The position numbers and the translations under genes were made by a program. Under the pieces are notes generated by a model. That model was not told where the DNA came from. It saw nothing but the letters and a program-made list of their open reading frames with translations, and did not search any database. Below are positions 47,855 to 62,645 of a DNA stretch of 64,000 nucleotides, in pieces (position 1 is the stretch's first letter; each line of letters opens with the position of its first letter). This stretch comes from Caldithrix abyssi DSM 13497 (lineage in GTDB: Bacteria > Calditrichota > Calditrichia > Calditrichales > Calditrichaceae), in NCBI RefSeq assembly GCF_001886815.1, contig NZ_CP018099.1, positions 2,354,501 to 2,418,500 on the forward strand. The letters run 5' to 3'.

Positions 47855-49078
47855 GTGAAGGAGTGGTTAAGAAAAATCGACTTTCTACGCGAAGAAGATG
47901 AAAAACCTGAAAATCAATTTACGCTTTCCGAATTTTCCGGATCGGTGGGCGATCTGGGAACGCTTTTGCCGCTGGCTTTTGCCCTGATTGTGTTCAACGG
48001 TTTTTCCAGCGCCATCATCTTCTTTTTGTTCGGCGTGATTTACCTGTTAACCGGTTGGTTTTACCGCGTTCCCGTTTCCGTTCAGCCCTTAAAAGCCATG
48101 TCGGTTATTGCCATTGGCCAGGGCTTTTCGCCTGAATTTTTGGCCGGCACTTCCGTTTTGTACGGACTACTGATGGCTTTTCTGGCCTTAACCGGCCTGA
48201 TCCGCTGGCTGCAAAACTGGTTTACGCCGGCGCTGGTGCGCGGCATTCAATTTGGCATCGGATTGATTTTGACGCAAAAAGCGCTGGAGCTGGTGTGGCA
48301 AAAAGGAATTTTACTCCATTTAGATAATTCCTCTCTATCATTGGGTTTTTTACTGTTAGCGCTTTTTTTGGCCATAATCTGGTGGTTTCAGGTTAAAAAG
48401 GATCTGCCTGCTGCCCTGATTATGATCTTTTTATCCATCCTGTTTATTGCCATCTGGGGGCCGGCTCCTCCGATTCGTGAGGGGCAGCATCTGTCTTTAA
48501 AGCTGTATCTTCCAGACTTTTCCATCTGGAAAGAAGCGCTGATCTTTCTGATCATACCCCAGTTGCCTTTAACTCTTGGCAACGCCGTTTACGCCGCAAA
48601 CGATTCGTGCCATACATTGTGGGGCAAACAGGCTCAACGCGTAACGCCCACACGACTGGCGTTTAGCATCGGGCTCAGCGACGTTTTAATCGGCCTGTTT
48701 AAAGGATTTCCTGTCTGCCATGGCGCGGGAGGAATGGGCGCACATGCCCAGTTTGGAGCCCGCACCGGAGGAGCGACCATGATTATCGGCGCTGTGCTGG
48801 TGATTAGCGCGCTGATTCCCGCATTAAATCAATTTATTTTTTTAATTCCCGTGCCCTTGTTAGCCGCCATGCTCATCTTTGACAGCTACCGCATGATGAT
48901 TATGGTTCGCAGGCTGGAAGGCTGGCAACCATTGTTCGTCGCGCTGCTGGTGGGCGGCATCTCCTTTTTAACCAGAAATTTAACCATCGCTCTGGTAGCT
49001 GGCTTTTTAACTGAACGTCTTTTAAAATTAATGATCAATAAATCAACCAAAACGGTTATAGGAGCGGAAAATGATTGA
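47855..49078 (+). CDS. MOT1-like molybdate/sulfate transporter
   Basis: A 407-aa membrane protein with about 10 to 12 helices. It matches the MOT1 / sulfate-transporter-like family (PF16983): FSGSVGDLGTLLPLAFAL, RVPVSVQPLKAMSVIAI, PVCHGAGGMGAHAQFGARTGG. MOT1 proteins import molybdate. Placement between moaA and moaC-mogA under a Moco riboswitch strongly supports molybdate (or tungstate) uptake. GTG start at 47855 with AGGAGG in front, one base after the moaA stop. Confidence 0.9.
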   Translation: MKEWLRKIDFLREEDEKPENQFTLSEFSGSVGDLGTLLPLAFALIVFNGFSSAIIFFLFGVIYLLTGWFYRVPVSVQPLKAMSVIAIGQGFSPEFLAGTSVLYGLLMAFLALTGLIRWLQNWFTPALVRGIQFGIGLILTQKALELVWQKGILLHLDNSSLSLGFLLLALFLAIIWWFQVKKDLPAALIMIFLSILFIAIWGPAPPIREGQHLSLKLYLPDFSIWKEALIFLIIPQLPLTLGNAVYAANDSCHTLWGKQAQRVTPTRLAFSIGLSDVLIGLFKGFPVCHGAGGMGAHAQFGARTGGATMIIGAVLVISALIPALNQFIFLIPVPLLAAMLIFDSYRMMIMVRRLEGWQPLFVALLVGGISFLTRNLTIALVAGFLTERLLKLMINKSTKTVIGAEND

Positions 49079-50003
49079 TGTCAGCCCAAAATTTGTTACG
49101 CTGCGCTATGCCAAGGCCAGCGGCGTATTGTTCGCCCAAAAGGAAACCATTCAAAGAGTAAAAAACAAAACCGTACCCAAAGGCGATGTACTACAGGTTG
49201 CCAGGGCGGCAGGCATTTTGGCCGCTAAAAAAACGGCCGATTGGATCGTGTTCTGTCATCCCATTCCCATCGACTGGATTGAAATCCATTTTGAATTGTT
49301 CGAAGACCGCATTCAGGTGTTTAGCGAAGTGAAAAGCGTCTGGAAAACCGGCGTGGAGATGGAAGCGATAACCGCCGTTCAGGGCGCTTTAATGAATATG
49401 TACGATATGCTGAAACCGCTGGATCAGCAAATGTACATGACCGATATTAAACTGGAAGGAAAAAGAGGCGGAAAATCAGATTTTACGGACGAATTTAAAG
49501 GAACCATCAAGGCCGCGGTACTGGTTATCTCTGACTCCACCTTTGCCGGTCAAAGAGAAGACCGATCCGGTAAAATTATTAGCGACTTTTTAAAACAGCA
49601 AAAAATTGACGTCAGCGTTTATGAGATTTTGCCGGATGATGTATCGAAGATTCGAGAGCGTGTTAAAAATTTGGTGGACGAGGAAGGAATCGATCTCATT
49701 TTTACCACGGGTGGTACAGGCTTTGGTCCAAAGGATTTTACGCCGGAGGCCATTAAGCCCTTACTGGAAAAAGAAGCGCCGGGCATTGTGGAAGCCATCC
49801 GTCGTCACGGCAAAGAAAGAACGCCGTTTGCCATGCTTTCCAGAGAGATCGCCGGCCTGCGCAAACAGAGTTTAATAATTACTCTACCAGGTAGTTCGCG
49901 CGGGGCCGAAGAAAGCTTGCAGGCCATTTTCCCCGGCCTGTTGCACGCCTTTCCCATGATCTGGGGAGGTAAACACGACAAACAGGGGAGAGCCGTGTTA
50001 TGA
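49071..50003 (+). CDS. MoaC-MogA fusion, cyclic pyranopterin monophosphate synthase / molybdopterin adenylyltransferase
   Basis: A 310-aa bifunctional protein. Residues 1-145 are MoaC: MIDVSPKFVTLR, KGDVLQVARAAGILAAKKT, FCHPIPID, WKTGVEMEAITA, GGKSDF. Residues about 150-310 are MogA/MoaB: AAVLVISDS, IFTTGGTGFGPKDFTPEA, ITLPGSSRGAEESL. It joins the second step of Moco synthesis with the step before MoeA. Overlaps with the transporter (8 bases) and moeA (4 bases) show one transcript. No separate moaD or moaE is in the window. Confidence 0.95.
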   Translation: MIDVSPKFVTLRYAKASGVLFAQKETIQRVKNKTVPKGDVLQVARAAGILAAKKTADWIVFCHPIPIDWIEIHFELFEDRIQVFSEVKSVWKTGVEMEAITAVQGALMNMYDMLKPLDQQMYMTDIKLEGKRGGKSDFTDEFKGTIKAAVLVISDSTFAGQREDRSGKIISDFLKQQKIDVSVYEILPDDVSKIRERVKNLVDEEGIDLIFTTGGTGFGPKDFTPEAIKPLLEKEAPGIVEAIRRHGKERTPFAMLSREIAGLRKQSLIITLPGSSRGAEESLQAIFPGLLHAFPMIWGGKHDKQGRAVL

Positions 50004-51214
50004 TTAGCATACAGGAAGCCATGGAAAGAATTTGGGCCAGGCTACCGGAAAAGAAGAGAGAAACGCTCGACATTTCAGAGTCAACCGGTCGTGTCCTGGC
50101 GCATCAGGTGACCGCCGCAGAGCCTTCTCCCCGTTTTACCAACTCCGCCATGGATGGCATGGCCGTACGATTTGAAGATTTACAGTCATTACCGGTTGAA
50201 CTAAGCATTGTTGGAGAAAGTCGCGCCGGCGTGCCCTTTCAGGGAATTGTGCAAAATGGCCAGGCCGTGCGTATTAGCACCGGCGCCGTGCTACCACAGG
50301 GCGCAGATACGGTAATTCCTATTGAAGATTGCCAGGTGGAACAAAGTCGGGTTAAAGTTCTGACGGCGAAAAAGAAAGGCGCCAACGTTCGGAAGAAAGG
50401 CGAAGAGTTCGAGAGTGGAGAAGTTCTGCTGGCATCCGGAACAACGCTTTTTCCGGAACATCTTGCTCTGCTGGCCGCGCAGGGCATTCAACGCGTGGAA
50501 GTGTATGCCCGTCCGCGCGTGGTCTTGTTAACCACCGGAAGCGAGGTCAAGTCCTTTAAAGAAGAGATAGCCGATTACGAAATTCGCGATTCTAACCTGC
50601 TCATGCTTGGCGAAGCCATTAAGTTAGCGGGCGGAGCGCTTGTCGTATCTGATCGTCTGCCGGACGATTTTTCGTTAACCGTTCAAAAGTTGAAAGAAGC
50701 ACAAAATAAGGCCGATGTAATCGTCCTTTCCGGCGGCGTTTCGGTGGGCCCGCACGATCATGTAAAGAAGGCGGCGGCAGAGGCCGGATTTAGCGAAGTC
50801 TTCTGGAAGGTAAACCAACAACCGGGCAAACCGCTCTTTTTTGCCGCCAGTGATAACACGCTTTTGTTTGGCCTGCCCGGAAATCCGGTTTCGGCCTTTA
50901 TGAGTATGGCACATTACGTGTATCCGGTTTTACGTCGTTTGCAGGGCTTTGACGACGACCGGGCGGTGTGCGTTGCCCGGGCCCGGAGCCGGCTGGAGAT
51001 CAATAAAAAGCGCGCCCAATTGTTGCGCGTCCGTCTGGAAAAAACGGATGAAGGCTGGCATTTTATTCCGTTGAAAAGGCAGGGCTCGCACATGATAACT
51101 TCCATCAGTCAGGCCGATGGCTACATTGTTGTCGGGCCCGTGGAAACCATTGAGAAAGATGAAACGCGAAATGTTTATCTATTTCCCTGGAGGAAAAGTT
51201 ATGGGTTATGTTGA
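50000..51214 (+). CDS. moeA: MoeA, molybdopterin molybdotransferase
   Basis: A 404-aa protein of the MoeA/gephyrin-E family. It inserts molybdate into adenylated molybdopterin. Motifs: SPRFTNSAMDGMAVR, RISTGAVLPQGADTVIPIED, LLTTGSEV, DSNLLMLGEAI, VIVLSGGVSVGPHDHVK, NQQPGKPLFFA, FGLPGNPVSAF. Start overlaps moaC-mogA as ATGA. The MOSC gene starts 14 bases before its stop. Confidence 0.96.
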   Translation: MISIQEAMERIWARLPEKKRETLDISESTGRVLAHQVTAAEPSPRFTNSAMDGMAVRFEDLQSLPVELSIVGESRAGVPFQGIVQNGQAVRISTGAVLPQGADTVIPIEDCQVEQSRVKVLTAKKKGANVRKKGEEFESGEVLLASGTTLFPEHLALLAAQGIQRVEVYARPRVVLLTTGSEVKSFKEEIADYEIRDSNLLMLGEAIKLAGGALVVSDRLPDDFSLTVQKLKEAQNKADVIVLSGGVSVGPHDHVKKAAAEAGFSEVFWKVNQQPGKPLFFAASDNTLLFGLPGNPVSAFMSMAHYVYPVLRRLQGFDDDRAVCVARARSRLEINKKRAQLLRVRLEKTDEGWHFIPLKRQGSHMITSISQADGYIVVGPVETIEKDETRNVYLFPWRKSYGLC

Positions 51215-51665
51215 ATCGATCTGCATCAGCCACAAAAAAGGTATCGTTAAAAAAGAAATTAAAGAAGCAAATTTTATTAAAGACTACGGAATCGAAGGGG
51301 ACGCCCATGCCGGTAAGTGGCATCGGCAGGTTTCTCTGCTGGCCGGCGAAAGCATCGATAAAATGAAAGAAAAAATTCCTTCCCTTCAACACGGCGCATT
51401 CGCTGAAAATTTGGTTCTGCGGCAGGTGGATTTTAGCCGGATTCGTGTGGGCGATTTGTTGCGCATTGGCGATTCGGTTCTGCTGGAGGTGACGCAAATC
51501 GGAAAAGAGTGTCACACCTCCTGCGCCATCAAAAAAATAGTGGGCGATTGCATTATGCCGCGCGAGGGATTGTTTGCCCGCATTTTACAGGGGGGCGCCG
51601 TCCGAACAGGTCAGGAAGTTTGCGTGCTGACGCAGAATGAGACCACAGTAAAACAGGCCATGTAA
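51201..51665 (+). CDS. MOSC-domain protein
   Basis: A 154-aa protein consisting of a MOSC domain: IEGDAHAGKWHRQVSLL, GAFAENLVLRQVD, VGDLLRIGDSVLLEVTQIGKECHTSC, MPREGLFARILQGG. The Cys in KECHTSC fits the conserved cysteine of the family. MOSC proteins carry sulfur to Moco or act on metal-sulfur ligands. ATG at 51201 is chosen: GGAGGAAAAGTT precedes it. A longer frame from 51117 lies inside moeA. Confidence 0.9.
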   Translation: MGYVESICISHKKGIVKKEIKEANFIKDYGIEGDAHAGKWHRQVSLLAGESIDKMKEKIPSLQHGAFAENLVLRQVDFSRIRVGDLLRIGDSVLLEVTQIGKECHTSCAIKKIVGDCIMPREGLFARILQGGAVRTGQEVCVLTQNETTVKQAM

Positions 51666-51715: not shown

Positions 51716-54700
51716 TCAGGTTTGCAGTACTTCTTTTATTTTAGAAGCAAGCTGCTCCACAGAGTAAGGTTTAGGTACAAAATGGATGCCTTTTTCTAAC
51801 AGGCCGTTTTGCACAATGTGGTCGTCGGTGTAGCCCGACACATAAATTACTTTTAGCTCAGGGAATAGTTTCTGTAATTTAATGGCCAGCTCTTTGCCGT
51901 TCATTTCAGGCATCACCAGGTCTGTAATTAATAAGTCAGGTTTTAGGTTTGATTTTTTCACCAATTCCAGAGCTTCGCGGCCGTTGGAAGCAGAATGGAT
52001 TTTAAAGCCGAAATTGCTCAGCGCTTTTTCGGCAAAATGGCGAACGCTGGCCTCGTCTTCCACCAGCAAGATGGTTTCTTTGCCCCTGAAATTTAAATTT
52101 ACTTTTTTCTTCTTTTCATCATCAACCGATTTTAATTCCATGGCCGGCCAGTTTACGGTAAAGGTCGTGCCCAATCCGGGTTCAGAGTAAACATAGATGG
52201 CGCCGTTGTTCTGTTTTACAATTCCGTAAACGGTAGAGAGACCCAGGCCGGTGCCTTTTCCTTTTTCTTTGGTTGTAAAAAAGGGTTCAAAAATATGTTC
52301 AATCGTTTCCCGATCCATACCGATGCCGTTATCCATTACCTTTAACACCACGTATTTGCCGGGATGCAGTCCGGGATGCGTGCGTATGTATTCCTCGTCA
52401 TATTCGGTTTGCAGGGTTTCGATGGTAATTCTCTTTTGAAATTTTTCTCTCTGCGCCATATTCACCGCGTCGCGCGCATTAACCACCAGGTTAATTAAAA
52501 TCTGATCGATCTGCGATCGATCAGCAAGAATGGGAGAGATGGATTCCTGCAATCTGAGCTCCAATTTAATGTCCTCGCCGATCAGGCGCATGAGCATCTT
52601 TTGCGTATCTAAAATCACTTTGTTCAAATGAAGCAGTTCCTGATTGACGATTTGTTTGCGGCTAAAGGCCAGTAGCTGATTGGTTAAATTAGCGGCGCGT
52701 TTGCCCGCCTCCAGAATGGCCTTAAGCGCCGAATGCCTGGAATCGTTTTCGGTCATGCGTGAGAGCGTTAACTCCGCGTAACCATTAATGACGGTTAGCA
52801 AGTTGTTAAAATCATGAGCTATCCCGCCTGCCAATTGGCCGATGGCTTCCATCTTTTGCATCTGGCGCATTTGTTCCTGCAATTTAATCTCTTTATCTAT
52901 GTTTCTGGCGCTTTTACACAAATTAATGATATTGCCCTGGCTGTCGCGGATGGGGAAGATAGCCACTTCTTCATGAAAGGAAGAGCCATCTTTACGTTGA
53001 TTAATCCACTGACCTTTCCAGACCTGGCCTCTACCAATGGTTTCTAAAATCGCATCGCGATATTTACTTTTAAGGATGGGCAGTGTTTGCCCTACAACCG
53101 TTTCTTTTTTAAATCCGGTCACCTGTTCAAAAGCAGGATTCACATATTCGATTATTCCATCTTTATCAGTAATGATAAAAGCCGTATTAGATTGTTCCAC
53201 CAGGGTGGCCAGACGTTTAATTTGTTCGGCGGATTTTTGTTGTTCTTCCATATATTTAATTTTTTGTAAAGCGATTTTTATCAACTGAACCACCGCCCGG
53301 ATAAAACCAATTTCTTCCTGTTTCCAGAAATGTGTAGTGGAGAAAAAGTTAAGCGTCAGTAAATAGTTTTCGGAAGCGGACAGCGAAATGGGATACCAGA
53401 TCAAACTTTTAATTTTTAGCTGGTCGTGCAGGATTTTTGCGGAATTTTCCTGGCTTAGCAACGAATGATATCTGTTTGCATGACTTTCCAGCCAGGCTTG
53501 ATCTTTAATCAGATGAGAAGCTGAATGCTTAATAACTTCAAGTGGGGGGTGAATATTCGTTTTTATCGATTCAACCGTTTTTTCGTTGGACCATTGACTG
53601 ATGAGTTGCGAGGATTCCGCCGCTAAATTTATTTCAAAAATTAAGCATTGATCCAGACCAAGCGTCCGCCCGATAAGCGATGCGGATTCTTTTAGGATTT
53701 CTTCACGCCTGGTTTCGCTGATAATCTTTTTAGCCAGATGATTAATGGCGTTGGAAAAGTGTAATTGTCTTTCCAGTAATTTTTCCGTTGCTTTCAGCGC
53801 CGTAATATCGCGACCAAATACTACCAATCCCTTACGACTGCCGTCTTCGTTAAAAAGCGGCACTTTAATCACATCATAGATTTTTACCGTGCCGTCGGGC
53901 CTGGGGACGATCTCTTCAGCGCGGGTTATGGTCCCTTTTTGCCAGGCCAGCTCATCAGATATTTCGCAAGTTAAAAAGGCGTCCTTGTAAAAGGGCGCAA
54001 ACTCCGCCAGTTCGCTATCCTTTTTTCCTCGATATTCAACGTTTTGTAGTTCAAACAGTTTTAAATCCGCCTCATTGGCTTCTAACCAGCGGCCTTCCTC
54101 GTCTTTAAAACAAATGATATCGGGCGTGGCGTTAATGAGAGTGCGTAGTTGTTCTTCGCTGCGTAAAATGACCTCCTCTTTGGCCTTTCGCTCTCGAACA
54201 TTGCTAATAATTTCGGCAAAGAGCTTAAGGAGGGTAATTTCGTTTTCACTCCACTTTCTGATCTTTTTAACGGAATCAAATCCTGCAAAGCCAATACAGC
54301 GTCCATTGCGCATAATAGGGACGGTGATGAAAGTTTTTATCTCCTGAGCCTCTAAAAATTTCTTAATAGGGTCTCCTGGGGGTAAGGCATTAACGTCCGG
54401 AACATGAACCATCTGGCCTTTGGCATGGGCATCAAGCCACTCCGGTGACAAATTAATAGGTACTTTCTGTAAATTATCTATCTGCGGAGTTATTCCCGGG
54501 GCGCACCATTCATGGGTATTGGTCATAATGCCTTTCTCAAAGAGATAATCGAACAAATAAACGCGATCCACGCCAGTAAACTCTCCCAGTATCTGTAGCG
54601 CTTTATTTATTTTTTCATCAAATTGCTCGATAGGAACATTAATATATTCCGTAGCAAAGGTTAAAATCAATTTTTGAAATTCGCTTAACTTTTTAACCTC

Positions 54701-56032
54701 ATCCCGCGCTATTTTTTGTTCGGTAATATCGGTGATGGCGCCTTCAAAATAAAGAAAATTACCTTGCTGGTCATAAATGGGCCGACCGTTCATTAAAACC
54801 CAGATAGGTATGCCATCTTTTCGTTTTAACTTAACTTCCACATTCTTTAGCAAACCATATTTCAGGACCATATTGATCAAACGGTCTCTTTCTTCAAGAT
54901 GCCAGTACATTTTACGCGCATCACCTTGGGTTATCAGTTCCTGCGGAGAATCGTACCCCAATATTCTGGCCATGGAAGGGTTTGCGGCCAGAAACTTACC
55001 GTCATAGGTGGTTTGATAGATTCCTTCTACAGAGTTTTCAAAAATAGCCCGATATTTCGCCTCCGACTTCGATGCCTGCTCCAGGGCCCGCATGCGCATG
55101 ATAATGGCTGTTAGATTGTCGGCCAGTAATTGGACCAGTTGTTCATCTGCTTCCGAATATTCCGTTTGACGATCATAATAAACCATAAACTTGCCAAGTA
55201 AACCGCCGGGATGAACCAGAGGCACAAAATACAGCGCTTTTATTCCCTCTTGCAACACTTTCTTTTTTATGTCTTCTGGCAAATTTGAACTTTTTACATC
55301 GGAAATAAAGATAGGCCGGGCATTAATATCTTCTTTTTCCCAGGGACAATGTCCGTCCAACGCTTTGCGATAGTTTTCCGAAAGCCCATCCCAGGCCACA
55401 AAATGGACTTTATTATCCAGGCCAAATATGAGAATAGAAGCCCGATCAGCCTTTAAAATAGCTTTTACTCCTTTGAGCGCTATTTCATAAACTTCTTCCA
55501 GAGATTTCGCCCTGTTTAAATTGGCAATTACTTCATAAATTAATATCATACACTGTTGAGTTTCCGAAAAATCACGCAGCGCTTTAATATGGCCAGTAAC
55601 ATCGATGATTTGACATTGGAATTCAGATACACGGTTCTTTGTATCAGTAAAAACACTTATAAAATCTACTATCCACACCCATTGCCCGTTTTTGTGTTTT
55701 ATTTGATACGGCTTGTTCTGAAAACTCGTATTACCGCTATTTAATTGCTTTTTTATGTAAGTTAATACGCGTTTTTGATGTGATTCAGAAATAAGTTGAG
55801 AAAAAGTAATTTTTCCGGTTAAAAAATCTTTTGCGGAATATCCCGTTATTTTTTTTATGCCTGGAGAAATCTCGGCAGGTATGCCGCTAAAAAAATCGTC
55901 CAATTTTTTCCATTTTAAATAGCAGGTGTTTTTTACAATATACTTTTCCACTGAGTTACTTTGAAAAATGTCGCTCAAAGTCGATAAGTATTTAAGAAAG
56001 TTAAATTGTTGACTAATTTTTTGGGAATCCAT
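51716..56032 (-). CDS. Multi-sensor hybrid histidine kinase, 4 PAS and 3 GAF domains
   Basis: A 1438-aa protein. No membrane segment is seen, so it senses cytoplasmic signals. Order: PAS (about 35-150), GAF (165-315), PAS (320-445), GAF (450-630), PAS (635-760), GAF (770-945), PAS (950-1060), HisKA with phospho-His1073 ([13 protein letters not shown]), HATPase with DNGIGMD and GKGTGLGLS, then a receiver with Asp1371 ([11 protein letters not shown]). ATG at 56032 has AAAAGGATT in front and is preferred to one 36 bases upstream. It stands alone, with no response regulator beside it. The signals are unknown. Confidence 0.95.
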
Positions 56033-56237
56033 TTTTAATCCTTTTGATTTACGCTTATTAATAAACATGCGTTTATCGTTTTATTTATAAAAAACTTTAA
56101 TAAATATTGGCTCATTTTCGGTTTATTCAGAAAAAATATTGAAAAACAATCTGATAAAAAAATAGGACACGGCTCTCAATTTATAAAGTGGTTTATCGCC
56201 TATTAATCCTATGTTTTTGGGGAAACTTAAAATTAAC

Positions 56238-56294
56238 TTGACAAAATGAACTTATGTTCATTATATTGCGTACAAGTAAATGAACATAAGTTCA
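56238..56294 (+). promoter_or_regulatory. Promoter with two overlapping TGAAC-N4-GTTCA operators
   Basis: Perfect -35 TTGACA (56238-56243), 18-base spacer, -10 TATATT (56262-56267). Two palindromes of the form TGAAC-N4-GTTCA lie at 56247-56260 (in the spacer) and 56281-56294, centres 34 bases apart (about three helical turns). The two sites are also inverted copies of each other over 16 bases. A dimeric repressor bound to both would block RNA polymerase. The obvious candidate is the DUF134 regulator encoded next. Confidence 0.85.
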
Positions 56295-56308
56295 ATTAAG
56301 GGGAGTTT

Positions 56309-56752
56309 ATGAGAGGTCCTTACAGGAAGCGAATGATCTGGCAGCCGCCGCAATTCAGGAATTTTAAGCCGAGCGGCATTCCCAGACGCGCGCTGGAGTC
56401 CATAGTGCTCACAGTGGATGAGTACGAGGCCATTCGTCTGGCTGATCATCTCGGTCTGGAACATCAGGCTGCGGCTGAACGCATGCACATTTCGCGCCCC
56501 ACGTTTACGCGTTTGATTGAGCAGGCCAGGCGAAAAGTGGCCACGGCCATTGTAGAAGGCAAAGAGTTGATTATTGATGGCGGGAATGTGAATTTCATAA
56601 ACACATTGACTCACTGTCAGGACTGCGGCGAAACCATTCAACAGCCGATTGACGCCGAGATTGATCAGTGTCCGGATTGTGGTTCGCAAAATATCGAAAA
56701 TTTAGCCCATCGTTATCTGGCCCAGGGAAGAAGACACAGGAGAGGACGTTAA
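56309..56752 (+). CDS. DUF134-family DNA-binding protein with zinc ribbon
   Basis: A 147-aa protein. Residues 1-95 match DUF134, a helix-turn-helix family: the motif LTVDEYEAIRLADHLGLEH followed by AAERMHISRPTFTRLIEQARRK as the HTH. The C-terminal 45 residues have CQDCGETI and CPDCGSQN, a four-cysteine zinc ribbon. It heads the operon of MinD-type ATPases and the NifX-like protein, as DUF134 genes commonly do. Autoregulation through the two palindromes upstream is likely. Ribosome site GGGGAG. Confidence 0.9.
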   Translation: MRGPYRKRMIWQPPQFRNFKPSGIPRRALESIVLTVDEYEAIRLADHLGLEHQAAAERMHISRPTFTRLIEQARRKVATAIVEGKELIIDGGNVNFINTLTHCQDCGETIQQPIDAEIDQCPDCGSQNIENLAHRYLAQGRRHRRGR

Positions 56753-56753
56753 G

Positions 56754-57611
56754 ATGAAGATAGCTGTTGCCAGCGGAAAAGGCGGAACCGGAAAGACCTT
56801 AATTGCCACCAATCTGGCCTTTGTGGCCTCACGATCGAAAAAAGCGGCGCTTTACGATCTGGATGTGGAAGAGCCGAATGTGGCCTTATTTTTTGCGCAA
56901 AAGGAGATTGATTCGCAAGCGGTAGAAAAGATGATACCCATTATTAATGATGCAGTTTGCGATTACTGCGGTATTTGCAGTCAGGTGTGTGAATATCATG
57001 CCATCATCACTCTGGCTGATCAGGTGATGGTTTTTCCGGAGCTCTGCCACAGTTGTTACGGCTGTCTGGAGATGTGTCCTGCCGGAGCGATTGAAGAAGG
57101 GAAGAAGGAAATCGGCCGAATTTCTCTAAGCCAATCCGACAACTTGCAGTTTGTAAGCGGCACATTAAAGGTAGGCGAATCGGCCACCACTGCTTTAATC
57201 AAAGATACCAAAAAGGCAGGACAGAACGAAGCGCAAATTTTCATCTACGATTCGCCGCCGGGCACATCCTGTCCGGTAATCGAGGCCGTAAAAGATATGG
57301 ATTACATCGTTCTGGTGGGAGAGCCCACGCCCTTCGGATTACACGATCTCGACCTGCTGGTTCAGGTGGTGCGACAGTTCGACAAGCCGTTTGGCGTGGT
57401 GATTAACAAAGCCATGGATGAAGAAGACCTCATTACAGAATATTGCCGGCAGAAGCATATTGAGGTGCTTGGCAGAATTCCCCATAGGCAAGAAATTGCC
57501 CGGGCCTATGCCCGGGGGCAGCTGATTACGCAGGCCGTAGAAGGTATGGAGCGGTTGTTTTTGAATCTTTTAAATAAGATTACGCAAAAAGTTAATGAGG
57601 TGGCGGCATGA
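56754..57611 (+). CDS. MinD-superfamily P-loop ATPase with inserted ferredoxin domain (first)
   Basis: A 285-aa protein. Deviant Walker A SGKGGTGKT (7-15) with DLDVEEPN as switch I. A two-[4Fe-4S] ferredoxin insert lies at about 63-112: CDYCGICSQVCEYHAI and CHSCYGCLEMCPAGAI. Switch II YDSPPGTSCPVIEA follows. Such proteins are found in pairs and are thought to move or insert iron-sulfur or metal clusters. It starts one base after the DUF134 stop and overlaps the second ATPase by 4 bases. Specific client unknown. Confidence 0.92.
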   Translation: MKIAVASGKGGTGKTLIATNLAFVASRSKKAALYDLDVEEPNVALFFAQKEIDSQAVEKMIPIINDAVCDYCGICSQVCEYHAIITLADQVMVFPELCHSCYGCLEMCPAGAIEEGKKEIGRISLSQSDNLQFVSGTLKVGESATTALIKDTKKAGQNEAQIFIYDSPPGTSCPVIEAVKDMDYIVLVGEPTPFGLHDLDLLVQVVRQFDKPFGVVINKAMDEEDLITEYCRQKHIEVLGRIPHRQEIARAYARGQLITQAVEGMERLFLNLLNKITQKVNEVAA

Positions 57612-58483
57612 AAGAGATTGTAATCATCAGTGGAAAGGGCGGAACCGGCAAAACTTCCATTACGGCTGCGCTGGGCGCCCTGGCAGGCAAAAGCGCTGTG
57701 GTGGCGGACTGCGACGTGGATGCCGCCAATTTACATCTGCTCTACGAACCGCGTGTTCGCCATGCAGAAGATTTTTACAGCGGCAAAACGGCGATTATTG
57801 ACAACGATCTTTGTACAGATTGCGGCCTTTGCGCTGAAAAATGTGCCTTTGACGCCATTCGGTACGAATATGGCCAGTACATGGTGGACGAAGTAAGTTG
57901 CGAAGGCTGTGCCGTTTGTTTTCATCTTTGTCCGGTTAACGCCATTCGCATGGAAGAGAATCTGGCCGGCAAATGGTACCGCGCCCAATCTCGATTCGAT
58001 AACGAATTTGTTTATGCCCATCTGGGAATTGGTCAGGAAAATTCGGGCAAATTAGTGGCTAAAGTAAAACAGGAAGCGAAAAAGATTGCCGAAAACGAGA
58101 ATATTCCCTTTATCTTTGTAGATGGCCCGCCGGGCGTTGGATGTCCGGTCATTTCTTCTTTGAGTAATGTCGATCATGTGTTGTTAGTTACCGAAGCTTC
58201 GCAATCGGGTTTGCACGATCTGCAGCGTCTGGTGGAGTTGATCGAATATTTTAAACTAAAAGCCTCTTGCGTAATTAATAAGAGCGATTTAAACGAACAA
58301 ATGGCCAGTGAAATTGATGACTATTGCCAGAAACATAACATTACCGTAATCAATCACATTCCCTATCATCCAGAGTTTGTTGAAACGCTAAATGCCAAAA
58401 AAACCTTGATTGAGGGAAAAGATAAGGCTATCAAACAAAAAATTTTCCAGATCTATCAATTTTTAACCAGAGAAGAGGAGTGA
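57608..58483 (+). CDS. MinD-superfamily P-loop ATPase with inserted ferredoxin domain (second)
   Basis: A 291-aa paralogue of the previous gene. SGKGGTGKT (8-16), DCDVDAANLH, ferredoxin insert CTDCGLCAEKCAFDAI and CEGCAVCFHLCPVNAI, switch II VDGPPGVGCPVISS. The pair probably forms a heterodimer, as adjacent MinD-ferredoxin genes are nearly always together. Translationally coupled through an ATGA overlap. Confidence 0.92.
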   Translation: MKEIVIISGKGGTGKTSITAALGALAGKSAVVADCDVDAANLHLLYEPRVRHAEDFYSGKTAIIDNDLCTDCGLCAEKCAFDAIRYEYGQYMVDEVSCEGCAVCFHLCPVNAIRMEENLAGKWYRAQSRFDNEFVYAHLGIGQENSGKLVAKVKQEAKKIAENENIPFIFVDGPPGVGCPVISSLSNVDHVLLVTEASQSGLHDLQRLVELIEYFKLKASCVINKSDLNEQMASEIDDYCQKHNITVINHIPYHPEFVETLNAKKTLIEGKDKAIKQKIFQIYQFLTREEE

Positions 58484-58488
58484 GTGTC

Positions 58489-58830
58489 ATGAAAGTAGCT
58501 TTTACAGCCCAGGGAAATGGCTGGTACGAAAAAGTAGATTTGCGCTTTGGACGGGGCAGAGGTTTTTTTGTAGTCGATACGAACAACGAAGAGACCAGGT
58601 TTATTGACAATGCTTCTAATGTGGAAGCTGCGCACGGCGCGGGTACCAGCGCCGCCCAGATTATCATCAATGCGGGGATTGATGTCCTGGTTACCGGACA
58701 TGTGGGCCCTAAAGCCGGTTCTGTTTTGAAAAGCGCAGGAATTAAGGTTTACTCTACAGAAGGAAATATAACCTTAAAAGACGCCTATCGCCTGTTTAAA
58801 GAAGGAAAGTTGAAGGAACAGGAATTGTAA
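58489..58830 (+). CDS. NifX/NifB-type dinitrogenase iron-molybdenum cofactor-like protein
   Basis: A 113-aa single-domain protein of the NifX/NafY/NifB-C fold: MKVAFTAQGNGW, LRFGRGRGFFVVDT, GAGTSAAQIIINAGIDVLVTGHVGPKA, IKVYSTEGNITLKDA. Stand-alone members often sit with MinD-ferredoxin ATPases in organisms that do not fix nitrogen. ATG at 58489 is chosen; GAGGAG lies 8 bases upstream, while GTG at 58480 adds only SV to the front. No nif structural genes are in the window. Confidence 0.9.
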   Translation: MKVAFTAQGNGWYEKVDLRFGRGRGFFVVDTNNEETRFIDNASNVEAAHGAGTSAAQIIINAGIDVLVTGHVGPKAGSVLKSAGIKVYSTEGNITLKDAYRLFKEGKLKEQEL

Positions 58831-58903: not shown

Positions 58904-59281
58904 ATGCCGTGGGGAGATCGCACAGGTCCTTCAGGTCAGGGACCACGAACAGGCAGAGGATTGGGATACTGCGCGGGCTATGACAGCCCGGGCTACACCA
59001 GGGGAACGCCCATGGGCCGTGGATTTGGCTTTGGACGCGGTTTGGGTCGGGGCTTTGGCCGCGGCTTTGGCTTTGGGCGTGGTTTTGGATGGCGCTGGAG
59101 CTGGCCATGGCCGCAAACGGGCAGCGCCCAGGCCGCTCCAACTAGCGACAAAGGCAACCAGGCCGAGCTAACCGCCATGAAAAATGAACTGAACAGCCTG
59201 AAATCCGCGGTCGAGGGCTTGTTGAATCGGCTCAGCGCATTAACCGAAAAAAGCGCCGCCGGCTCCAAAGAGAACGACTGA
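58904..59281 (+). CDS. DUF5320-like Gly/Arg/Phe-rich protein
   Basis: A 125-aa protein. It begins MPWGDRTGPSGQGPRTGRGLGYCAGY, the DUF5320 signature (the GPrGrG motif), then a Gly-Arg-Phe repeat of the type GRGFGFGRG (residues 38-62). The C-terminal 40 residues form a short coiled coil (ELTAMKNELNSLKSAVEGLLNRL). Commonly found near NifX-like and MinD-ferredoxin genes. Function unknown. Ribosome site AAAGGAGG. Confidence 0.82.
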   Translation: MPWGDRTGPSGQGPRTGRGLGYCAGYDSPGYTRGTPMGRGFGFGRGLGRGFGRGFGFGRGFGWRWSWPWPQTGSAQAAPTSDKGNQAELTAMKNELNSLKSAVEGLLNRLSALTEKSAAGSKEND

Positions 59282-59438: not shown

Positions 59439-59900
59439 ATGAGCGAACAAAATTCATCAAAAATTGTAAAGATTGGTATCATTATTTGCGATCGCTACCG
59501 CAATTGCGCGGCAGGCAAATGTTTAAGAGCGCTGAAAAACCGTGAAGGGGCTTTCGGTTATTATCAGGACGTGGAAGTGGAGCTGGTGGGCTTTACCACC
59601 TGCGGCGGCTGTCCCGGGGGCAATATTGAATACGCGCCGGCCGAAATGAAAAGAAACGGCGTGGACGTCATTCATCTGGCTACGGGCTTGCTGGTCGGTT
59701 ATCCGCCCTGTCCTTATTTAAAGTACTTTAAAGAATTTATTGAAATGCACCATCAGATCAAGGTGGTTTACGGGACGCATCCCATTCCACAAAGTTACTT
59801 TTTAACGCATCAGGAATTGGGATCGTGGGATTCGCCGGAGTGGAAAGAAATCATAACGCCAGAATTAACCATAGAAGATCAACGACTGAGTTACAGTTGA
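59439..59900 (+). CDS. CGGC-domain protein
   Basis: A 153-aa protein with the CGGC domain: KIGIIICDRYRNCAAGKC, VGFTTCGGCPGGN, VIHLATGL, CPYLKYF. At least six cysteines are placed to bind a metal or cluster. The family is of unknown function, thought to bind metal. Its start follows a strong ribosome site (GGGAGGGAG). It lies 157 bases after the DUF5320 gene. Confidence 0.88.
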   Translation: MSEQNSSKIVKIGIIICDRYRNCAAGKCLRALKNREGAFGYYQDVEVELVGFTTCGGCPGGNIEYAPAEMKRNGVDVIHLATGLLVGYPPCPYLKYFKEFIEMHHQIKVVYGTHPIPQSYFLTHQELGSWDSPEWKEIITPELTIEDQRLSYS

Positions 59901-59918
59901 AAAAAAAGGAGAATGAAG

Positions 59919-60131
59919 ATGGCAGGAATGGCCAGACAGACCATGGGCAGCGGAGGGTATTGTATCTGTCCAAAATGTGATTATCGGGCGCCGCATCAGC
60001 GCGGTGTGCCGTGTCAGGAGCAGCGCTGTCCCCATTGCGGAGCCAGATTGATGCGCGAAGGCTCTTATCATCACCAATTGTTATTGGAGAAGAGAAAGCA
60101 AAAAAGTGAACGCAAAGATGAGGGAAATTGA
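59919..60131 (+). CDS. Small zinc-ribbon (rubredoxin-like) protein
   Basis: A 70-aa protein. CICPKCDYRAPHQ and CQEQRCPHCGARL provide Cys pairs for one zinc or iron site. ATG at 59919 is chosen because AAAAGGAG ends 8 bases upstream; an ATG at 59913 is too close to that site. Last gene of the DUF134 region, 18 bases after the CGGC gene. Confidence 0.75.
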   Translation: MAGMARQTMGSGGYCICPKCDYRAPHQRGVPCQEQRCPHCGARLMREGSYHHQLLLEKRKQKSERKDEGN

Positions 60132-60386: not shown

Positions 60387-62645
60387 TTATGGGCCGTCTC
60401 GGCTTGAAGTAAAAATAATATACATCTCGGTTGCCGTATCCAATCGCTGTATACCTCGCCAGAGCGTTACTGTGCCAGGCTCGCCATCACTCTTTCTGCC
60501 TAAATGGCCTCCGATCTGACCTACCATACGGATGGCTTCTCGTAAACTCATCGGCTCCTCCGGCGCTATGGGCGTCTTATGCACATAGCAATACAACGCT
60601 TTCCATTCCTCTTCTTTGAAAAATACGCTCGCCGGCGAATCCGGTATTTCACGACCTAACATGGTCATATGATAAATGCGCCAGGCTACAACCATATCCA
60701 CGGCTAAGGCCGTCTCTAAACGATCCGCACTGCCTAATTGACGATCTTTTATGCGGCAGCCGCTCTTGAGCGTTCGATGATATATCTCGATACCCCAACG
60801 ACGAGTGTACCACTGCACTCGTTGATAGGCATCAGTAAAATTCTCTACCGACACCGTGGTCAATAACATCCACTCTATTGGACTCTTAATATCAGCTGGC
60901 GGATCGACCTCTCGGATATAAACAGCCCACACCTTAATGGGCTTAGAGGACGAAAATCGTTTCGGCGGTTCTAAGTCTATCGACGAATAACGCAAGGACA
61001 TCTTGGCCTCACGAGCCCTGATATTGCCCCTACGAGGAACATGAATTTGAAATTGACCGCGCTCTTCTTGACTGGACATGTAATCCCACAGATCAATTCC
61101 GGCCACTTTGCGATTGCGGCGCTTGCCCACGCGTACCAAAAGTCCTGCCTTGCTATCTTTCCTTTGAGCCTCATGAAATAATTCGTAGATATCCGCCTCT
61201 CGATCGCCCACGCTTACGATAAGCGTCTCCGGACATAACTTAGCGATCTCGTTGACCCGGCGATAACTACGTAACCATTTCATACTCTCTTTTTGCTCAA
61301 TGGGTAATTCCTTCCGACGACGCGTCTTGCCTCGATCCTTCGGATCACGAGCCCATACCTGGGCATCCAATACGCCTAACGGCGTGCCATCCTCACTAAA
61401 GGCCAATGTATCATGTAAAATCAAGCCAATGCTCTGGTGATCTATATGGCTTGTCGGCCCCAAGTCTTTGGTCATGGGATGCGTGCTGTAGTCTAAAATG
61501 GTCGTGTCCTGAGGCGCTAAAACCACCTTGTGTTCTTTTATGCGATCTATCGTCGCCTCGGTATGTGCATCTAAAATAATATCCATGGTTACCTTCTCGT
61601 TTTGAAAAAATCGATAGGCGCCCATCGTGCGCGCCTTACCACCACAGGCCTCCGGAATGTTGGCCTGCGGCTTGTTGTAAAAGTCATCCGCTATGGCGTA
61701 CAAACGCTGTTTGAGACGATTGTCATATAAGCGAATGCTGCCAAATTCCCGCTCCGCCCAATTCGATGAGTCTTTGATTAATCGTCCTTGGCCTAAACCG
61801 TCCGCACTCTCCTGACACAAAATCTTTCGCCAGTTCCTTTGCAATGGATAAAGAAATACCTTTTTGGCGATACCGTCACGACGACCGCTGGTATTTCCTA
61901 CATAAAGCCAGTTGGAAGCCAGGTAACCGATGCCTTTGAAAACACTAGAATCCACATAACTTTCCACCAAAACCGGGCGATAACCATAACGACTCTCCCA
62001 ATCGGTTCCAATACGCTGCAAGGCTTTACTCAACAGAAATGAAGCCAGATTCTTGACCTTAACCGTAGGTACGATCAAAAAACGATCATTACTGATCACA
62101 TACTGGATATTCTCCCTTCGCGCCTTTTCGCTCCAGCCAATATAGGCATCCCTGGCTCGTAATTTATAAGTCGCTGAACTAAAGCCTAAAGCGCCAATAT
62201 AGCCATACTTCTCGCTTTTTACAATATAGCGAATCTGAGCGCCACAAAGTTTTGCGCTTTTAAGGTAATGGAAATTCTCTATTAACTGAAACCATGCGCG
62301 CGAATCCTTGCTGTAGCGGCTTTTGATCGGCTCGATTACAATTTCGCCTAAAACCGATAAATGGCCTTCAATGGAGGCGATTGGAACATCAAGCTTACGC
62401 TTTTTCTTTTTTTCAAAAGCATAGCTTTTTTTTCGTTCTGGTAATTTGATTAAACCGCGCCGATCCAGCTCTAATAAGGCTTTACGGCAGCTCATCTCCT
62501 GGAATTTCCCATTGGGAGATTTCCAGTCCATCAGTTCGCATACCTCTCGTGATAATTTCCTACGAGATATCTGCGGCTGCCGGGCAATGATCGCATTAAT
62601 ACGTTTTAATATTGGTTCGCTAAAAATTTTCCCATATATTTGCAT
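60387..62645 (-). CDS. DruA-domain / Tn5-family (IS4) transposase, copy 2
   Basis: The 752-aa product is identical to that of copy 1 (17565-19823), with the DruA-like domain at about 85-265 and the DDE residues Asp380, Asp481 and Glu620. At base 60453 the copy has T on the coding strand where copy 1 has A, in a Gly codon, so the change is silent. Intact, likely active. Confidence 0.95.
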   Translation of the reverse strand: MQIYGKIFSEPILKRINAIIARQPQISRRKLSREVCELMDWKSPNGKFQEMSCRKALLELDRRGLIKLPERKKSYAFEKKKKRKLDVPIASIEGHLSVLGEIVIEPIKSRYSKDSRAWFQLIENFHYLKSAKLCGAQIRYIVKSEKYGYIGALGFSSATYKLRARDAYIGWSEKARRENIQYVISNDRFLIVPTVKVKNLASFLLSKALQRIGTDWESRYGYRPVLVESYVDSSVFKGIGYLASNWLYVGNTSGRRDGIAKKVFLYPLQRNWRKILCQESADGLGQGRLIKDSSNWAEREFGSIRLYDNRLKQRLYAIADDFYNKPQANIPEACGGKARTMGAYRFFQNEKVTMDIILDAHTEATIDRIKEHKVVLAPQDTTILDYSTHPMTKDLGPTSHIDHQSIGLILHDTLAFSEDGTPLGVLDAQVWARDPKDRGKTRRRKELPIEQKESMKWLRSYRRVNEIAKLCPETLIVSVGDREADIYELFHEAQRKDSKAGLLVRVGKRRNRKVAGIDLWDYMSSQEERGQFQIHVPRRGNIRAREAKMSLRYSSIDLEPPKRFSSSKPIKVWAVYIREVDPPADIKSPIEWMLLTTVSVENFTDAYQRVQWYTRRWGIEIYHRTLKSGCRIKDRQLGSADRLETALAVDMVVAWRIYHMTMLGREIPDSPASVFFKEEEWKALYCYVHKTPIAPEEPMSLREAIRMVGQIGGHLGRKSDGEPGTVTLWRGIQRLDTATEMYIIFTSSRDGP

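Follow-up and report, generated by a model that had tools for sequence, protein, structure and literature searches.

Twin palindromes over a Caldithrix abyssi promoter as putative operators of the DUF134 protein encoded downstream

In a 64,000-nucleotide stretch of the Caldithrix abyssi DSM 13497 genome (hereafter the window), two copies of the palindrome TGAACN4GTTCA lie over a promoter, raising the question of which protein reads them and with what effect on the genes behind them. By comparison with the consensus, the promoter (TTGACA-18-TATATT) consists of a -35 hexamer TTGACA (56238-56243, plus strand) and a -10 hexamer TATATT (56262-56267, plus strand), separated by an 18-bp spacer. It matches the consensus at 11 of 12 positions over 56238-56267, in keeping with its description as strong in the first-pass annotation. 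Putative operator 1, TGAACTTATGTTCA (56247-56260, plus strand; ATGAACTTATGTTCAT at 56246..56261), is an exact match that occupies the spacer and keeps its position in relatives. Putative operator 2, TGAACATAAGTTCA (56281-56294, plus strand; ATGAACATAAGTTCAA at 56280..56295), is also exact, and the twin is likewise kept in relatives. It lies in the operon leader, at about +7 to +20 if transcription starts where the -10 hexamer predicts, with 14 bases between its end and the ATG of the DUF134 gene at 56309. The two centres are 34 bp apart, so that both palindromes, one between -35 and -10 and one past -10, were found as first described. Single exact copies of TGAACN4GTTCA occur in the 4.98-Mb, one-contig genome about as often as composition predicts (5 found, about 5.5 expected), but only about 0.0004 pairs at most 60 bp apart are expected genome-wide. 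The further remark that the sites are inverted copies of each other over 16 bases holds exactly (TGAACTTATGTTCATT), but it says little, since either site on its own comes close to a perfect palindrome, with a single asymmetric pair; in the relative G008 both are perfect. The cores, CTTATG and CATAAG, are each one base away from CATATG, which places both sites in the family of DUF134-associated palindromes described below.

The gene that follows (56309..56752, plus strand) encodes a 147-residue protein with a helix-turn-helix (HTH) and a C-terminal CxxC...CxxC ribbon, proposed here as an autorepressor. It belongs to the DUF134/UPF0251 family (PF02001, E=5.5e-24; 85 bits against a cut-off of 27). 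The sequence SRPTFTR of its recognition helix spans residues 62-68; in an AlphaFold2 model (mean pLDDT 91.7) the helix covers residues 63-83. Further genes follow on the same strand. Two open reading frames (ORFs) encode MinD/ParA-type P-loop NTPases with a ferredoxin insert (56754..57611, PF01656 and PF00037; 57608..58483, PF01656 and PF14697). They are followed by a Nitro_FeMo-Co (NifX/MTH1175-type) cluster-binding protein (58480..58830, PF02579, E=7.9e-20), a DUF5320 protein (58904..59281, PF17253, E=1.1e-24), a CGGC-domain protein (59439..59900, PF08821, E=6.1e-29) and a small cysteine-rich, ribbon-like protein without a Pfam match (59913..60131). By eye, the last of these resembles the product of the first gene of an operator-bearing CGGC operon in another genome (L321). 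The reading that we favor, with a probability of roughly 0.86, is that the twin palindromes are operators of the downstream DUF134 protein, which would repress its own Nitro_FeMo-Co/MinD operon.

Two neighboring regions deserve mention in their own right. Beyond the operon, on the minus strand (60387-62645), a 752-residue protein combines an N-terminal DruA domain (DUF4338, Druantia) with an IS4/Tn5-type transposase (PF14236, PF14706, PF02281), a fusion that suggests a link of DruA with transposition. On the other side, a molybdenum-cofactor cluster (49071-51665, plus strand) encodes MoaC fused to a MoCF-biosynthesis domain, MoeA and a MOSC protein. It lies near the Nitro_FeMo-Co operon, with a gene for a large PAS/GAF hybrid kinase (51716-56068, minus strand) in between.

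If the palindrome is a DUF134 operator, it is expected upstream of other DUF134 genes, the check that the first-pass annotation had proposed. A search for the PF02001 family gave a match in 30 of 98 relatives. The same twin site is present in close relatives (L007, L009, L012, L015, L016, L017 and L019), and more distant ones carry related palindromes such as TTATGAGCATATGCTTATAA, GGGCATATGCCC and TTGTGCATATGCACAA. A scan of named genomes added 80 loci from Cloacimonadota, Bacteroidota, Neomarinimicrobiota, Spirochaetes, Campylobacterota-type and other genomes, again with CATATG palindromes. Together with other phyla and plasmid records, which completed the set, the sample comprised 257 DUF134 genes with at least 80 bp of upstream sequence. 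CATATG occurs upstream of 128 of these, compared to 11.8 expected, and is by far the most enriched of the 64 palindromic hexamers. A full CATATG-like palindromic site precedes 149 of the 257 genes (shuffle mean 4.85), so that the expected conservation extends across phyla. The other 108 promoters have no site under the criteria used, and some of these genes may lie inside operons. Two helix classes, SRPTVTR and SRQTFQN, have no clear site among the upstream regions listed.

DUF134 genes are also found on plasmids. Matches occur in 189 plasmid records, and plasmid-borne DUF134-NifX cassettes from Proteus, Klebsiella, Salinivibrio and Morganella (L195, L196, L197, L326) are often accompanied by genes for a SLAC1-type channel and a PaaI thioesterase. 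A viral or phage origin was considered and rejected, as the matches included a single contig from a virus and none from a phage.

The placement of the sites bears on the direction of regulation. Site centers lie 8 or 5 bp upstream of the start of the -10 hexamer in 52 of 129 promoters and 12-18 bp downstream of it in 42. The spacers measure 17 bp in 84 promoters, 16 bp in 24 and 18 bp in 10, so that 118 of the 129 fall at 16-18 bp. Sites at promoters with optimal spacers, in the usual place for a repressor, point to autorepression, and it is only this placement that argues for repression over activation. DUF134 might instead bind and activate, untwisting the spacer as MerR does, or act as a dual regulator. 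Operator 1 sits inside the spacer, as a MerR site would, and the protein resembles sigma region 4, with a weak Sigma70_r4_2 match and a modelled HTH that fits a SigB chain to 0.8 Å. However, the spacers are near the optimum rather than 19-20 bp, and the 18 bp of the window promoter fall short of the MerR type; a large number of sites cover the start or follow the -10 hexamer, positions at which activation is unlikely, and the window promoter is already near consensus. MerR-like activation was rejected on the misfit of the spacer lengths, and we regard an activating or dual role in general as unlikely.

The twin layout had been taken to indicate that two dimers bind cooperatively on one face of the DNA. 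The 34 bp between centers correspond to 3.24 turns (34/10.5), which is no whole number. The arrangement is kept in the family to which the window's genome belongs, with spacings there of 32-35 bp, and is seen in about 21-23 of the 149 site-bearing promoters (0.2-2.6 in shuffles), mostly again at 32-35 bp; in some other genomes the spacing is 24-26 bp, and most DUF134 promoters elsewhere have a single site. Because the spacing varies and does not correspond to an integer number of turns, strict phasing finds no support, and cooperativity on one face is unsupported as originally stated. The layout speaks for a second dimer, though not for strict phasing.

If DUF134 proteins read these palindromes, their recognition helices should vary together with the operators. 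The helix follows the pattern S-R-x-T-F-y-z, and the half-site, T(±7), ±6, ±5, ±4, C(±3), tracks z, x and y, which are S+6, S+2 and S+5 when counted from the serine. We calculated mutual information with sequence weighting (effective number of sequences, 88.6). Among 93 protein columns, the top normalized values were obtained by S+5 for ±4, S+2 for ±5 and S+6 for ±6, although at ±4 S+2 ties with S+5 in the normalized value and exceeds it in the raw value. In weighted counts, threonine at S+5 goes with A at ±4 (29.3; G, 1.5) and glycine with G (24.6; A, 0.2). Proline at S+2 goes with A at ±5 (26.5; C, 0.5), serine with C (14.2; A, 7.3) and glycine with T (6.6). Arginine at S+6 goes with G at ±6 (67.4; A, 5.4), and asparagine with T (9.0). 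Both half-sites in the window are TGAAC, in agreement with proline, threonine and arginine at S+2, S+5 and S+6.

A table of helix class against strict pattern, with one mismatch allowed, is nearly diagonal; it is descriptive and not a test, as the classes had been suggested by the same data. TGAACN4GTTCA is found with 46 of 62 SRP helices that have threonine or serine at S+5, TGRGC with 34 of 53 SR[QPA] helices that have glycine at S+5 and arginine at S+6, TTRGC with 11 of 16 SRQ helices that have glycine and asparagine, and TGTGC with 19 of 35 SR[GA] helices that have glutamine and arginine. The SRS class (TGCAC in 35 of 44) is the least clean, since TGAAC is also matched in 19 of the 44.

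Shared ancestry was controlled for with pairs of proteins that are 60-75% identical outside the helix. Among these, the base at ±4 differs in 54 of 54 pairs that differ in class at S+5, compared to 24 of 666 pairs of the same class, and the operator differs in 80 of 80 versus 11 of 447 pairs for S+6; the effect is weaker for S+2 (60 of 130 versus 34 of 226). When operators were exchanged only between similar proteins, the observed mutual information was never reached at any of three thresholds (100 trials each). Paralogues within one genome behave in the same way. In G182, L137 (SRPTFSR) is associated with ATGAACATATGTTCAT and L171 (SRPTFGR) with ATGAGCATATGCTCAT; in G009, L016 (SRPTFSR) is associated with ATGAACATATGCTCAT and L192 (SRSTFSR) with ATGCACATATGTGCAT.

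The correspondence is loose in places. At S+2, serine is found with C or A and glutamine with A or G, and serine at S+5 sometimes goes with G. For proteins with the helix SRPTFSR (L012, L016, L049, L102), the operator is often a hybrid whose halves differ at ±4, one showing A and the other G (as in ATGAACATATGCTCAT), as if the serine at S+5 tolerated both. An out-of-sample look was taken at four plasmid DUF134 genes, two of which have this type of helix. Upstream of L323 (SRPTLSR) the palindrome is present, with G at ±4 where A was predicted, and the two CATATG sites of L326 fit the code in part. Judged from these comparisons, the recognition code is real, but it is not deterministic, given the mismatch at L323 and the partial fit at L326.

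The covariation also bears on the idea that another regulator with the same type of HTH, such as a SorC/DeoR-family protein, binds the sites. Bacillus subtilis DeoR, whose helix is SRPTVSR, does bind TTGAAC half-sites that are spaced identically (PMC11229326), but the operator letters change with the recognition helix of whichever DUF134 protein is encoded next to them. This holds even for paralogues that share a genome, which makes this idea very improbable.

The distribution of the motif beyond DUF134 promoters is consistent with a DUF134 operator as well. In 42 genomes around that of the window, TGAACWTAWGYTCA was found only in genomes that carry DUF134, with the sole exception of G027, where the copy lies inside an unrelated ORF; G009 has one additional copy, likewise within an unrelated ORF. 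Other extra copies precede genes of the kinds found in the window operon: Nitro_FeMo-Co plus DUF5320, and Nitro_FeMo-Co plus two NTPases, in G004 (L317, L318), a Nitro_FeMo-Co gene in G010 (L319), and a pair of cysteine-rich and CGGC genes in G013 (L321). Because these targets are of the kinds that make up the window operon, the operator stays with its gene set where that set has been divided among loci. In G004, the site of the DUF134 gene itself (L020) is degenerate (TGATCATAGGTTCA), and perfect sites stand before the split-off target genes. In the window's genome, two of the three other exact copies were examined, and both lie inside ORFs. No further promoter site was found there among the exact and near matches fetched, all of which overlap ORFs; this check covered matches other than the exact copy at 4366006 (G000) and those with three mismatches. 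A large regulon in this genome was rejected on these grounds, and a single target is likely, since the other fetched matches all overlap ORFs.

A Gram-positive-type LexA box (GAAC-N4-GTTC), which would place the operon under DNA-damage control, is the least probable reading of all and was rejected on the lexA promoter and the covariation: GAACATATGTTC does fall within the published S. aureus box CGAACATATGTTCT (PMC11442139) and the window's genome encodes LexA (L150), but GAACN4GTTC is absent upstream of this lexA even at one mismatch, so that the sites do not qualify as LexA boxes, half-sites in other phyla shift with the DUF134 helix to TGCAC, TGAGC, TTGGC or TGTGC, which LexA cannot explain, and the non-ORF extra copies in the 42 genomes precede Nitro_FeMo-Co-type rather than SOS genes.

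With conservation, residue-base covariation and the split regulons taken together, the suggestion that the palindrome is the site of the DUF134 protein is strongly supported at the level of sequence. We propose that a DUF134 dimer reads each palindrome through two HTH units. SRPTFTR would read the half-site T-G-A-A-C: G at ±6 would be taken by arginine (S+6), A at ±5 would go with proline (S+2) and A at ±4 with threonine (S+5), and the CATATG-like core would go with those helix residues that do not vary. Occupation of operator 1 would make the promoter unusable by RNA polymerase, and operator 2 would place a second dimer over the initially transcribed region; judging from these positions, DUF134 would thereby autorepress the operon. 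The operon proteins probably handle an iron-sulfur or metal-sulfur cluster in this anaerobe, and release probably depends on the cluster or metal state, sensed by the zinc-ribbon-like C-terminal tail or, alternatively, by the Nitro_FeMo-Co domain that is fused to DUF134 in other species. Such sensing is suggested by the CxxC tails and the Nitro_FeMo-Co fusions. At least two CxxC motifs are present in a short tail in 143 of 260 DUF134 proteins, and 26 of the 260 have a long tail, which was a Nitro_FeMo-Co domain in both full-length cases tested. A Nitro_FeMo-Co ORF is present in the fetched stretch at 165 of 260 DUF134 loci, and at 43 of the 56 where the stretch is at least 5 kb.

In the open literature, to which our search was confined, we found no description of a function or operator for DUF134/UPF0251/COG1342. 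On balance, we lean towards a broader view in which DUF134 proteins are widespread one-component regulators of Fe-S/Mo-S cluster operons in anaerobes, a three-residue code (S+2, S+5 and S+6 to ±5, ±4 and ±6) keeps paralogues orthogonal, and the tail or the fused Nitro_FeMo-Co domain senses the cluster that is handled. A domain of unassigned function that occurs in many bacterial phyla and some archaea would then turn out to be a regulator whose operator, regulon and specificity code are defined. This would open a direct way into the Nitro_FeMo-Co/MinD operons of anaerobes, which are poorly understood, and the code predicts which residue substitution should alter which base.

Of the known systems, the LexA SOS box of Gram-positive bacteria shares the GAAC-N4-GTTC letters. 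It differs in its target genes, the lexA promoter here is without the motif, and the DUF134 motif covaries with its protein instead of being constant. The MrpORP/ORP system of Desulfovibrio (NF041136; PMC6345978) similarly combines MinD-type P-loop NTPases with Nitro_FeMo-Co proteins for Fe-S clusters in anaerobes. However, the window proteins score far below the MrpORP cut-off, and regulation of the orp operons involves sigma54 together with a cognate activator, according to the title of Fievet 2011 as cited in PMC6345978. A third likeness is to DeoR of the SorC family (PDB 7bhy/8r7y). The B. subtilis DeoR operator, ATTGAACAAAATTTCAAT, has the TGAAC half-site with a 6-bp gap; R39 contacts G4, and R34 touches another base (PMC11229326). 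By their spacing, these arginines would correspond to S+6 and S+1, respectively. The helices are ISRPTVSR in DeoR and ISRPTFTR in DUF134, and the two systems share the TGAAC half-site, the 6 bp between TGAA and TTCA, a two-part operator and the HTH fold. The modelled DUF134 HTH, which is of the DeoR type, superimposes on the DeoR-operator complex (7bhy) to 0.8 Å over 39-40 columns with 40-41% identity. DeoR differs in having a C-terminal effector domain and forming tetramers. No SorC/DeoR-type sugar-phosphate effector domain was found at the C-terminus of the 147-residue DUF134 protein, which carries the CxxC...CxxC ribbon in its place. Unlike DeoR, DUF134 proteins have only a short additional stretch at the N-terminus and a tail that is either a zinc ribbon or a Nitro_FeMo-Co domain, their gene set is different, and here the second site is itself fully palindromic. 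The proposed kind of regulator, a repressor with a DeoR-like HTH that acts at a palindrome, is thus a known one; what would be new is the operator of the DUF134 family, its gene set and its recognition code.
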